From IMG/VR virus record IMGVR_UViG_3300030106_004933, positions 1-31,736 of that record: a DNA stretch of 31,736 bases. One strand, written 5' to 3'. This DNA comes from a virus. Shown one piece after another: positions 22,704 through 25,710 of this stretch; positions within the stretch are counted from its first letter, which is position 1, and every line of letters begins with the position of its first letter. The notes under the pieces were generated by a model. That model worked only from the letters and a program-made list of their open reading frames with translations, searched no databases and was not told the DNA's origin. A program made the translations under genes and the position numbers.

Positions 22704-22953
22704 CGTTGGTGCGGCCGCGTCAGTCGCCGGCGCATACTTTGATTACCTCACAAGCGAGAAGGGCGAGGCGGTGATCGTCACGCCGCCGATCGTGGACTAC
22801 ACGAGCGAGATCCAGACGCGTGCGGCCGACGAGTTTGATAAGCTCGGGCCGCCCTGCGCACGGGACACTGTGACCGAAAATTGCTCAGCCGTCGCCAGGT
22901 TCATTATGGATTACGGCACCTTGCGAGATAAGATCCGCGCGGCGAAGGAGTGA
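22621..22953 (+). CDS. outer-membrane spanin-like lipoprotein (Rz1 type)
   Basis: The ATG at 22621 is chosen inside a longer open frame because it gives a signal peptide (VWMLFAIMCLAIILATGC) with Cys22 as the likely lipidated residue; the lipobox ATGC is slightly atypical at -3. The 110-residue product is longer than usual for Rz1, with a central EAVIVTPPIVDYTSEI stretch and two Cys in GPPCARDTVTENC that could form a disulfide. It overlaps the i-spanin-like gene out of frame. Its stop codon lies inside the inverted copy of the attP repeat. Confidence 0.68.
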   Translation: MRVSVWMLFAIMCLAIILATGCATAVSSVGAAASVAGAYFDYLTSEKGEAVIVTPPIVDYTSEIQTRAADEFDKLGPPCARDTVTENCSAVARFIMDYGTLRDKIRAAKE

Positions 22954-22961
22954 CCTTCAGG
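22951..22961 (-). repeat. inverted copy of the 11-mer CCTGAAGGTCA
   Basis: The plus strand reads TGACCTTCAGG, the exact reverse complement of the 11-mer in the tRNA anticodon arm (23128-23138) and at 23253-23263. It covers the stop codon of the spanin-like lipoprotein gene. It may be an arm-type integrase site. Confidence 0.6.
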
Positions 22962-22997
22962 GTAGGGATTTTCCCCGCGTTTTCCCCGCAGAAAAAC

Positions 22998-23037
22998 ATT
23001 CCCACACATTCCCCTGGGTTCCCCTGCATTCCCCTCT
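22998..23037 (+). repeat. four 10-base-phased ATTCCCCTnC units (attP left arm)
   Basis: Units start at 22998, 23008, 23018 and 23028 and read ATTCCCACAC, ATTCCCCTGG, GTTCCCCTGC and ATTCCCCTCT. The phasing is exactly 10 bases, so all copies face the same side of the helix. Two further TTCCCC copies followed by GC lie at 22971 and 22982. Small winged-helix excisionases bind such tandem sites and bend attP. The same unit recurs upstream of the excisionase-like gene's operon. Confidence 0.7.
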
Positions 23038-23115
23038 TGTACCTTTTGAAACGGCGGATATACTGGCGTTCCGCGCTAAGCCGTTGATTTTGTTGAGCCC
23101 CGCAAAGGGCATTTG

Positions 23116-23165
23116 TCAGGCTCATAACCTGAAGGTCAGAGGTTCAAATCCTCTCCCCGCAACCA
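23116..23165 (+). other. 3' half of initiator tRNA-Met (attP core)
   Basis: Anticodon stem TCAGG/CCTGA closes a 7-base loop CTCATAA with anticodon CAT. Then come the variable AGGTC, T-arm AGAGG/CCTCT around TTCAAAT, acceptor strand CCCCGCA, A73 and CCA. The A72 A73 CCA end and this anticodon arm fit initiator tRNA of alphaproteobacteria (recalled from known genes). No 5' half (a TGCGGGG or CGCGGGG acceptor strand, or a D-arm) lies upstream, so this is not a working tRNA gene. Integration would rebuild the host gene. Confidence 0.85.
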
Positions 23166-23178
23166 ATGAAATCAAAGG

Positions 23179-23207
23179 CTTAGCCCTAACAGGCTAGGTC
23201 TTTTTTT
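23179..23207 (+). terminator. rho-independent terminator after the half-tRNA
   Basis: A 7-bp stem CTTAGCC/GGCTAGG (one G-T pair; 23179-23185 with 23192-23198), a 6-base loop CTAACA, then TC and seven T's. It sits 14 bases after the tRNA CCA. After integration it could end the restored tRNA transcript; in the phage form it would also stop lysis-operon transcription before the integrase. Confidence 0.75.
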
Positions 23208-23252
23208 ATGCGTCCCCGCAAAACCCCCGCATTTAAATTCCCCGCAAAATAT

Positions 23253-23263
23253 CCTGAAGGTCA
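23253..23263 (+). repeat. direct copy of the 11-mer CCTGAAGGTCA
   Basis: It is identical to 11 bases of the tRNA anticodon arm at 23128-23138 and lies 125 bases downstream of that copy, just before the integrase promoter. It may be an integrase arm site or a decoy core. Confidence 0.6.
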
Positions 23264-23271
23264 TTTTTTTG

Positions 23272-23299
23272 TTGATGTTTAGTAAGAAATACTTACAAT
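23272..23299 (+). promoter_or_regulatory. integrase promoter with palindromic operator
   Basis: A sigma70-like candidate: TTGATG (23272-23277), 16-base spacer, TACAAT (23294-23299). A perfect inverted repeat GTAAG-N5-CTTAC (23282-23296) fills the spacer and touches the -10. A near-identical copy lies in front of the repressor-like gene at 25471-25485. Binding here would block integrase transcription. Confidence 0.6.
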
Positions 23300-23334
23300 A
23301 AATAATAACGCAACGCCAACAAAGAGAGAGCAAC

Positions 23335-24462
23335 ATGGCACCGAAAACACCAAAGGGCATTCGTTACAGCAAGCGCGACAACGGCTATATCGTCAATCTC
23401 CGCAAGTTTGGCGGCGGTGAGCCGGTGCGCAAGACGCTCGACGAAGCGAAGGCTTTGCTTGAGCATGCCGCTGCCGAGCATCGTGACGGCGGCTTCGTAC
23501 CACAACATACGTCGCCGGCGTTCTCAGTGATCGCCGACAAGTTCATTGAGCACGAGGAGACACGCGTGCGCCGCGGCGACCTCGGCGAGGGCGAGCTGGC
23601 AAACAAGCGCACCAACGTGCAGCACCTGATCGCGCTGCCGTTTGGCAACTCGACGCTCGGCGAGACCAAGGTCGCGGATCTGCGCACAGGCCCGATTCAG
23701 CTTCAGCTCGTGCCGGCGTTGTTCGAAGGCCGCGCGCACAAGACGGCGTGTAACATCTGGACGACGTTCGGTCAGGTTCTCAAGCACGCTGTGCTGCTTG
23801 AGGCGATTAAGAAGAACCCGATCGTCGATCGTCAGATCACGCTGCCGGCGAAGCCGATTACGGCAGACGCGTTAGCTGCGCGCCTGTCGAAAAATATCAT
23901 CAACGCGATCGTCGAACACGCCGGCCGCCACGCACTCACCATTGAGTTCGCCGCGTGGACGGGATTGCGTGCCGGCGAGCAGATCGCACTCACCTGGGAC
24001 GACATTGACTTTGAGCGCGGTCTCGTAACTGTGCGCTTTGCTCGCAAGAAGTGCGGGGCCCTGGGCACTGCTAAGACCAAGGCAGGGCAGCGCTCGGTGC
24101 CGTTAGATCCTGAACTGCTTGCCAAGCTGCGCGCATGGAAGCTGTCGCAGCCGATCGAGCAACGCGTCAACAACCTCGTGTTTCCGACGATGACCGGCGC
24201 GATGGACAATGTAGACAACTGGCGCAAGCGTGGGCTGCACAAGGCGTGCGATCGCGCCGGCGTCGAGCGCATCACTTGGCACTCGCTGCGCCACTTCTTC
24301 GCGTCGATCTTGCTTTACGATTTGCGCGAAGCCGATGCGACGGTAACGACGCTGATGGGTCACAAGTCGATTGACTTCACGCGGTCGCAATACGGACATT
24401 GGATGGAGGACGCCGACCGCGACACCGGCATTGCCGAGCGTCTGGCGAGGGCGCGGGGATAA
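23335..24462 (+). CDS. int: tyrosine recombinase integrase
   Basis: A 375-residue integrase. The N-terminal 60 residues form an arm-binding-type domain (GIRYSKRDNGYIVNLRK). A SAM-like core-binding domain runs to about 170. The catalytic domain shows R212 in TGLRAGEQ, K249 in KTKAGQR, H316 and R319 in HSLRHFF, H343 in MGHKS and nucleophile Y353 in RSQYGH. It lies next to attP and would integrate the phage into the tRNA. Purine-rich AAAGAGAGAG precedes the ATG. The gene converges with the minus-strand operon, one base apart. Confidence 0.95.
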   Translation: MAPKTPKGIRYSKRDNGYIVNLRKFGGGEPVRKTLDEAKALLEHAAAEHRDGGFVPQHTSPAFSVIADKFIEHEETRVRRGDLGEGELANKRTNVQHLIALPFGNSTLGETKVADLRTGPIQLQLVPALFEGRAHKTACNIWTTFGQVLKHAVLLEAIKKNPIVDRQITLPAKPITADALAARLSKNIINAIVEHAGRHALTIEFAAWTGLRAGEQIALTWDDIDFERGLVTVRFARKKCGALGTAKTKAGQRSVPLDPELLAKLRAWKLSQPIEQRVNNLVFPTMTGAMDNVDNWRKRGLHKACDRAGVERITWHSLRHFFASILLYDLREADATVTTLMGHKSIDFTRSQYGHWMEDADRDTGIAERLARARG

Positions 24463-24463
24463 T

Positions 24464-24685
24464 CTATTTCATCAAATCTTCGACGCCTTGGTGAACGCCT
24501 TCGACGATATCGTTCACCAGGCGATCGATTGCGGTGTTATCGTGCTTCTGTTGTTTTGAAATCCACACACCCGACGCGCCGGTTACGTCGTCGTTCGACT
24601 CGACATGGATGAAGAAGCTGCCAAAGTCGGTTTTTACCTTCACCGTGTTGGTATATTTACGACTCACCGGCGGCAGCTTTCGCAA
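24464..24685 (-). CDS. small protein, last gene of leftward operon
   Basis: A 73-residue protein on the minus strand, overlapping the upstream DUF3310 gene by 29 bases and ending one base from the integrase stop. The sequence has strand-like TDFGSFFIHVESNDD followed by GVWISKQQKHDNTAIDRLVND and a final helix. It looks like a small conserved alpha/beta phage protein, but I cannot name the family. It is soluble, without signal peptide. Co-transcription with the excisionase-like gene is likely from the overlaps. Confidence 0.6.
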   Translation of the reverse strand: MRKLPPVSRKYTNTVKVKTDFGSFFIHVESNDDVTGASGVWISKQQKHDNTAIDRLVNDIVEGVHQGVEDLMK

Positions 24686-24980
24686 TGAGGAGATTGCGCA
24701 GTTTGTTCAGATACCAGCGTGCCTTCTCGATGTCGGTTCGCGGATCGGCGTGCTTCTGCCGATACCGCGATAAATATCTAATTATATTTGAGATCATAGC
24801 CGCCTCATCACCAGGCAGCTCACGCACCACATCAATGATATAGTCAAAGGTCTCGGTCGAGCCCTTTTTGTAGTGCGCAGGGTTTATTTCATCTGTGTCA
24901 GGACAGTCGCAGTCCTCGCACGTAATCGTAACAGGGCCCTCTTGCACGATGCCCTTGCCGTCGCACTTTGTGCAACTCAT
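24657..24980 (-). CDS. zinc-ribbon plus DUF3310 protein (T7 gp1.7-like domain)
   Basis: A 107-residue protein. Residues 3-24 carry CTKCDGKG and CEDC, a DnaJ-type CxxC pair of pairs likely to bind zinc. Residues 31-100 match DUF3310: INPAHYKKG (32-40), SNIIRYLSRYRQK (64-76) and IEKARWYLNKL (84-94). T7 gp1.7, the relative with a known activity, is a nucleotide kinase, so a role in nucleotide metabolism is possible. The start ATG overlaps the stop of the excisionase-like gene (ATGA). Confidence 0.82.
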   Translation of the reverse strand: MSCTKCDGKGIVQEGPVTITCEDCDCPDTDEINPAHYKKGSTETFDYIIDVVRELPGDEAAMISNIIRYLSRYRQKHADPRTDIEKARWYLNKLRNLLIAKAAAGES

Positions 24981-25147
24981 AGCAGCTCTTGAAGAGCTGA
25001 GCGCACGACGTAGTAACGGCTACCCGCCGATACATGACGCAGCTTGTTGGTGTGGATTAGCTTGAGAACTTTTTTGTAAGCTTGGTGGCCGCGATCTCCG
25101 AATAAGAGTTCGGCGGCGTCTCTAACGGGGACCAGCGCCGGCATCAT
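24977..25147 (-). CDS. excisionase-like small HTH protein
   Basis: A 56-residue protein beginning MMPALVPVRDAAELLFG, too short for routine ORF lists. VRDAAELLF is a first helix; KKVLKLIHTNKLRHVSAGSRYYVV is the recognition helix plus wing typical of MerR/excisionase (HTH_17-like) proteins. Either of two ATGs (25147 or 25144) may be used. It lies in a minus-strand operon facing the integrase gene. A role as Xis, as attP architectural factor, or as regulator of its own operon is inferred. Its likely binding sites are the 10-base repeats in attP and at this operon's promoter. Confidence 0.72.
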   Translation of the reverse strand: MMPALVPVRDAAELLFGDRGHQAYKKVLKLIHTNKLRHVSAGSRYYVVRSALQELL

Positions 25148-25257
25148 TGAACCCAGCTCTGCCAGAGCGCGTCGTTACTAGCTGCCATAAAAGCGAACGC
25201 CATGTAGATGACGAACAAGAAAAACGAAAAGCCTAAAGCCTCATATAGGAAACGCAT
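25144..25257 (-). CDS. 37-residue single-span membrane protein
   Basis: The first gene of the leftward operon, absent from ordinary ORF lists because of its length. It reads MRFLYEALGFSFFLFVIYMA then FAFMAASNDALWQSWVQ: one membrane span (about 8-26) with a short polar tail. GAGAGGG precedes the ATG. The TGA overlaps the tandem ATGs of the excisionase-like gene. Small membrane proteins of this kind are common in phage early operons. The function is unknown; superinfection control or membrane signalling are guesses. The plus-strand frame at 25208-25432 is its shadow. Confidence 0.62.
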   Translation of the reverse strand: MRFLYEALGFSFFLFVIYMAFAFMAASNDALWQSWVQ

Positions 25258-25281
25258 CGTATGCCCTCTCATAATGGTACA

Positions 25282-25301
25282 GGAGGGGAATGTAGGGGAA
25301 T
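25282..25301 (-). repeat. two ATTCCCCTnC units over the leftward promoter
   Basis: Read on the minus strand, ATTCCCCTAC (25301 to 25292) is followed directly by ATTCCCCTCC (25291 to 25282), phased by 10 bases. They match the attP array units and overlap the candidate -10, so the protein that binds attP here could repress or tune this operon. Confidence 0.7.
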
Positions 25302-25318
25302 TACAAAACGTAAGTCAA
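25289..25318 (-). promoter_or_regulatory. candidate leftward (excisionase operon) promoter
   Basis: On the minus strand: TTGACT (25318-25313), 18-base spacer, TACATT (25294-25289), 32 bases before the first ATG of the operon. The surrounding bases are crowded with GTAA/TTAC half-sites (25301-25338), including TTAC-N5-GTAA at 25301-25313 and TTACGTAA at 25325-25332. These suggest repressor binding near the -35. Confidence 0.5.
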
Positions 25319-25436
25319 ATAGAATTACGTAAAGTAAGTTCCACAGACGACATGGATGGCGGCGACTTTTGCTCCCTTGGCGGCGCATATTTTTATGTCA
25401 TTCCGCTCCTCTACATTGTCTGCCAACTGTAAGCGC

Positions 25437-25485
25437 TTGACAATAAATTATTAGGTCGCAATTATGTATAGTAAGAAAAACTTAT
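25437..25485 (+). promoter_or_regulatory. rightward promoter and operator of the repressor-like gene
   Basis: A consensus -35 TTGACA (25437-25442) is followed by a 17-base spacer and a weak AATTAT (25460-25465). Directly downstream lies GTAAG-N5-CTTAT (25471-25485), matching 15 of 18 positions of the integrase-promoter palindrome when one flanking base upstream and two downstream are included. It lies where transcription would start, so binding would repress this early operon or autoregulate the HTH gene. Confidence 0.58.
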
Positions 25486-25497
25486 GAAGCAGAATTC

Positions 25498-25710
25498 ATG
25501 CTGTTCTCTGAATGGATCGACGATCGCGGTTTGACCCGCGCAAAAGCCGCCAAACTTCTTGGCGTCACGCCTACAGCAGTGACGCATTGGTACTGGGGAA
25601 CGCATAGACCTACGGCAGAGATTACTGCGCGCATCTATGAACTGAGTGGCGGCAAGGTGACCGTTAATGATCTGCACCGGGGCTTTCAGATGGCAAGGAA
25701 TGCTCAATGA
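25498..25710 (+). CDS. Cro/CI-type helix-turn-helix regulator
   Basis: A 70-residue single-domain DNA-binding protein. RAKAAKLLGVTPTAVTHWYWG (about 14-34) is the helix-turn-helix, and the rest (RPTAEITARIYELSGGKVTVNDL) is the typical helix pair ending in a Cro/YdaS-like fold. It has no C-terminal cleavage or dimer domain. It is the first gene of the rightward operon and lies just after the palindromic operator, so autoregulation is likely. It may be the immunity repressor or a Cro-like antirepressor; no larger CI is visible. Confidence 0.78.
   Translation: MLFSEWIDDRGLTRAKAAKLLGVTPTAVTHWYWGTHRPTAEITARIYELSGGKVTVNDLHRGFQMARNAQ

Follow-up and report, generated by a model that had tools for sequence, protein, structure and literature searches.

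The analysed window is the entire record of an uncultivated virus, a temperate phage of 31,736 bases. The integrase gene (int; 23335..24462, + strand) encodes a tyrosine recombinase of 375 aa (PF00589, 2.2e-19; PHROG integrase, 5.7e-49), and a second gene (xis; 24977..25147, -) encodes a 56-aa winged-helix excisionase-like protein. The interval from the last gene of one module to int holds an attachment site (attP) that looks like a complete site of the lambda/186 type, with a core between two IHF sites, Int arm sites to either side and sites of a recombination directionality factor (RDF) in one arm, all predicted from sequence patterns. The order is two arm sites, a repeat array, an IHF site, a tRNA-fMet core, a second IHF site and three arm sites.

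The core is the 3' part of a tRNA-fMet-like gene with a CAT anticodon (23115..23165, +), and crossover presumably occurs in the anticodon loop CTCATAA, as we assume from what is known of the family. The tRNA part resembles a tRNA-Met gene carried by Komagataeibacter phages, which is no more than a hint of an alphaproteobacterial host. In the genome collection searched, Int had no near relative, so attB, attL and attR were not seen. The only two exact matches to the IHF consensus in the whole record flank the core (AATCAACGGCTTA, 23077..23089, -, whose position is fixed in 7 of 7 phages; and AATCAAAGGCTTA, 23170..23182, +). Their distances are fixed in the seven phages, one of the two sites having a single mismatch in L010. 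Putative Int arm-type sites of the pattern TCCCCGCR occur twice to the left of the core (P1, TCCCCGCG, 22972..22979, +; P2, TCCCCGCA, 22983..22990, +) and three times to the right (P'1-P'3, 23213..23246, +, with CCCCGCA at 23214, 23225 and 23240). P1 is found in the same place in the relatives and has diverged in some of them. A putative int promoter, TTGATG-16-TACAAT with the operator-like AGTAAGAAATACTTAC (23272..23299, +), was assigned by pattern only.

Copies of the core half-site CCTGAAGGTC (23128-23137, +) lie at both ends of attP, one inverted at the far left (22952..22961, -; 7 of 7 phages, with one mismatch in L012) and one direct, just upstream of the int promoter (23253..23262, +). 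Allowing one mismatch, the window contains just these three copies, and their arrangement is the same in all seven phages. An outgroup, L192/L193 (Int 35% and Xis 27% identical), has a different tRNA core; there the left outer element copies the outgroup's own core half-site, inverted, at 10 of 10 bases (at most 1 of 200 shuffles was as good), and the right outer copy is too short for significance. This suggests that the outer copies are extra core-type Int sites; something similar to core-type sites in the arms has reportedly been seen in phage HP1. A more doubtful extension is that Int binds the outer copies and represses its own gene, in which case Int and Xis would each control their own promoter through att-derived sites.

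The repeat array in the left arm of attP starts with four tandem units on the + strand (ATTCCCACAC at 22998, ATTCCCCTGG at 23008, GTTCCCCTGC at 23018 and ATTCCCCTCT at 23028), and a second set, on the - strand at the xis promoter, starts with ATTCCCCTAC (25301-25292) and ATTCCCCTCC (25291-25282). Because a degenerate last unit follows at both loci (TGTACCTTTT, 23038-23047, +; TGTACCATTA, 25281-25272, -), we read the arrays as five 10-bp units at attP (22998..23047, +) and three at the promoter (25272..25301, -), each unit being a putative Xis site. The earlier note on this DNA had described these repeats in 10-base steps, and both its coordinates and the spacing are exact at the two loci. Its consensus, ATTCCCCTnC, was too tight: exact ATTCCCCT is present in two of the four arm units, another starts with G, one is ATTCCCAC, and the TnC tail is unconserved. 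An alignment of relatives shows RTTCCY as the constant letters and drift in the last four positions of each 10-base unit, and from this comparison the unit was redrawn as RTTCCYnnnn. The degenerate last arm unit reads GTTCCC in L012, L013 and L014. The attP array lies in the stretch from P2 to the first IHF site, over which the seven phages show no indel, and its position corresponds to that of the X sites of lambda.

Both arrays stand out against the rest of the record. Exact ATTCCCCT occurs four times in the window, always within these arrays, with 0.165 expected and a maximum of two in simulation (400 third-order Markov sequences of window length). The pair RTTCCC-N4-RTTCCC was observed four times (three in the attP arm and one at the promoter) versus a simulated mean of 0.0075. 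The looser pair RTTCC-N5-RTTCC is confined to two places in the 31.7-kb record: one is at 22998-23035 (+), in the left arm of attP, and the other at 25301-25284 (-), at the xis promoter. The earlier note had named many equal clusters elsewhere as the outcome that would count against it; the confinement of phased pairs to two loci favours its claim.

The comparison set comprised seven related phage records of 4.3 to 35.4 kb, with Xis proteins 52-95% identical. In these, 23 of the 24 RTTCC-N5-RTTCC pairs fall at the same two sites (attP arm, 18; xis promoter, five), and the one exception is a stray within cI of a single record (G002). The attP array is present in all six related records that hold attP, with three pairs each, and the promoter pair is exact in five of the seven that hold the xis promoter. 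The diverged promoter units remain phased, reading ATTACC then ATTCCC in L015 and ATTGC/ATTGC in L012. Given the Markov counts and the placement of pairs in relatives, an effect of chance or composition was rejected.

Conservation within the units differs between the loci. In the attP units positions 2-5 are conserved and positions 7-10 drift (none of 20,000 permutations was as extreme), whereas in the promoter units the difference in conservation between positions 2-5 and 7-10 falls short of significance (p 0.25), probably owing to overlap with promoter and leader elements. The array at the promoter is short, and in L013/L014 its third unit has diverged. In a Mantel comparison of distances in seven phages, site change tracks Xis slightly better than Int, a difference that is not decisive, so co-evolution of the sites with Xis and with Int cannot be separated by these distances. 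In the outgroup L192/L193 no phased motif common to the attP arm and the xis promoter was found, and RTTCC pairs are absent from both of its records.

The xis operon promoter, TTGACT-18-TACATT (25289..25318, -), a promoter-like pair with fitting position and orientation, has its -35 at 25318-25313 and its -10 at 25294-25289. TACATT, which reads TATATT in most relatives, falls inside the array, in agreement with the earlier proposal that the promoter repeats cover a candidate -10. The first gene of the operon is a conserved small membrane-type ORF of 42 aa (25144..25272, -), whose true start may be the ATG at 25257; it is always first in the xis operon and had no match in family searches. The operon leader starts with an inverted repeat, CCCTCTC...GAGAGGG (25257-25291, -), conserved in L010-L018. 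The repeat could mask the Shine-Dalgarno sequence that serves the first ORF, and the stability of the hairpin varies (z -4.6 in L018, -3.1 in L010 and -0.6 in the window).

Profile and structure comparisons bear on the identity of the 56-aa protein. TIGR01764 (excise) was matched by nine of nine homologues, below its cut-off (best E 2.3e-4); the protein of the window scores 20.4 bits against a cut-off of 28.8 bits, its match to HTH_17 is also sub-threshold, and a sequence search of the PDB with an Xis profile gave no significant match. An AlphaFold model (pLDDT 88) has the order b-a-a-b-b-a, and its first PDB match in Foldseek is the Xis of mycobacteriophage Pukovnik (4J2N; probability 1.00). 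Realignment with VIA gave Z scores of 8.3 for BldC-DNA (rmsd 1.3, 51 residues aligned), 8.1 for Pukovnik Xis (2.4, 50), 6.0 for RdfS (2.8, 51), 5.4 for lambda Xis (2.0, 46), 5.2 for the P2 DNA-binding protein 4lhf and 4.9 for Tn916 Xis. From the model, the protein is confidently predicted to be a small MerR-type winged helix. Since, by the tool's own caveat, a Z near 8 may reflect merely a common arrangement, the fold supports an excisionase without proving it, and genomic place does the rest: as expected of an RDF gene, xis lies near a tyrosine integrase gene whose attP carries tandem, one-turn-spaced sites in one arm.

At the level of sequence, the same repeat occurs at attP and at the promoter controlling the RDF gene, as in an autoregulating RDF. 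The two arrays, their exclusivity and conservation, the layout of attP, the promoter and the predicted fold, together with the analogous systems discussed below, make it probable that one Xis binds both arrays, aiding excision at attP and repressing its own operon. On attP, Xis monomers would bind head to tail to the five sites, spaced by one helical turn, that separate P2 from the first IHF site, and the resulting filament would bend the arm and help Int to assemble the excision complex. At the promoter, the three sites would cover the -10 and the likely transcription start; with the -10 inside the array, a filament should keep RNA polymerase out, which suggests repression rather than activation. 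Xis would in this way shut off the operon once abundant enough. Five sites versus three suggests that attP would be occupied before the promoter, so that Xis would be capped once excision is possible.

The strongest rival, because promoter unit 2 is also one arm of a conserved inverted repeat, is that only the attP array is functional and that the likeness at the promoter arises by coincidence from the -10 TATATT, an operator end GTAATT and the leader repeat CCCTCTC...GAGAGGG. The other arm of that repeat is the Shine-Dalgarno region, one pair has changed on both sides, stable leader hairpins form in some relatives (L018 and L010), and unit 1 overlaps the operator-like GTAAT. However, nothing in the -10, the operator or the inverted repeat calls for a CC at positions 4-5 in each unit with a spacing of exactly 10 bp, and both units have changed jointly in L012 (ATTGC/ATTGC). 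The likeness between arm and promoter moreover runs into the following unit (TGTACC at attP, YGTACC at the promoter), and a transcription start about seven bases past the -10 would leave much of the 5' arm of the hairpin untranscribed. We consider such a coincidence unlikely.

Two further explanations keep both arrays functional and assign them to a protein other than Xis. If the ATTCCC units were extra arm-type sites, Int would bind and control the xis promoter; the arm sites TCCCCGCA have the letters TTCCCC in common with the repeat units, and between relatives the differences among sites fit the Int distances almost as closely as the Xis distances. A separate and complete set of arm-type sites of the TCCCCGCA type exists, however, with two on the left and three on the right, no CCCCGCA is present in the xis promoter, and strict 10-bp tandem direct repeats are typical of winged-helix excisionases rather than of Int arm sites (PMC7498355), all of which makes binding by Int quite improbable. 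Repressor and Cro-like genes nearby raise the further idea that both arrays are bound by another DNA-binding protein of phage or host (the repressor, a Cro-like protein or a host factor). HTH proteins of this kind usually recognise inverted repeats, though, and inverted operators, CTTAC-N5-GTAAT, are present separately, while tandem direct repeats one turn apart fit the Xis fold; this explanation has very little probability. Binding of both arrays by Xis remains our preferred reading.

The earlier note had also linked the shared repeat to the lysogeny switch. Sequence, comparison and fold support its winged-helix Xis, the phased attP sites and the same sites over the protein's own promoter, but not a direct link to the switch: cI and cro have no array between them, and the promoter concerned is xis's own, just downstream of cI. 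Phased pairs between cI and cro were absent from every record, relatives included, unlike the arrangement by which Apl acts on lysis and lysogeny. In the relatives, a gene for a LexA/CI-like repressor, whose C-terminal part appears from reading its sequence to be of the S24 type, ends just upstream of the xis promoter. In the window cI is almost wholly lost; the window ceases to be collinear with L011, L010 and L015 at about 25,318-25,327 and becomes so again at the cro-like gene (25,498), and tblastn with cI against the window gave no credible match. Only a short C-terminal cI remnant lies upstream of the xis promoter (25318-25499), where all close relatives have the cI/LexA-like gene. A natural derivative lacking the repressor, or else a join made in assembly, would account for the loss.

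Two repressor-type operators, CTTAC-N5-GTAAT, flank the -35 of the xis promoter (25300..25338, -; recognised by pattern only). Operator-like sequences (GTAAG-N5-CTTAC or CTTAC-N5-GTAAT) were seen at the int (23282-23296), cro-like (25471-25485) and xis (25300-25338) promoters, and in L012 (2105-2175) three tandem near-copies of a 28-bp unit with an operator-like CTNAC-N5-GTAAT lie between the int promoter and int. The operators at the int, cro-like and xis promoters probably form a common repressor regulon, and the lysogenic repressor probably shuts the xis and int promoters. A link to lysogeny could therefore be supplied by the operators beside these two promoters, via the repressor rather than the repeat.

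The circuit proposed here is already known in kind. Apl of phage 186, a sequence outlier among RDFs, binds cooperatively and with low specificity to five repeats 10-11 bp apart at attP and to seven at pR-pL, and represses both early promoters (PMC7498355). The phage described here resembles that system, as predicted from sequence, in its small excisionase that would also regulate transcription, in an attP array accompanied by Int and IHF sites and in a second array of the same repeat at a promoter away from attP. It differs in that the second array of Apl has seven sites between the lytic pR and the lysogenic pL, whereas here three units lie at xis's own promoter only, downstream of cI. RdfS of ICEMlSymR7A in Mesorhizobium binds to attP more strongly than to its own promoter, where it covers the -35/-10 and acts as a repressor (PMC11963761). 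Xis would share with RdfS (8DGL) a MerR-like winged helix, binding to attP next to an Int arm site and, less tightly, to its own promoter, and negative autoregulation. RdfS, however, belongs to an ICE and not a phage, has an extra N-terminal helix and yielded no consensus motif, whereas the motif here is sharp; RdfS also activates intS, while the array here is about 300 bp from int.

The fold and the tandem one-turn-spaced sites in an attP arm are also those of Pukovnik Xis and lambda Xis, for neither of which do we know of any autoregulation. The best structural match, Streptomyces BldC (6AMA, 6AMK), binds direct repeats cooperatively, head to tail (PMC5859096). BldC is a cellular developmental regulator and not an excisionase, so the fold by itself is no proof of function. 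The finding is sound but, since 186 Apl and RdfS have such a circuit, not new in kind. With it, an uncultivated phage lineage joins the few in which the excisionase appears to set its own level, with a sharp site motif kept across phages whose Xis proteins are only about half identical, and offers a good system for measuring how site number (five versus three) determines which array is bound first and, through that, when excision occurs.
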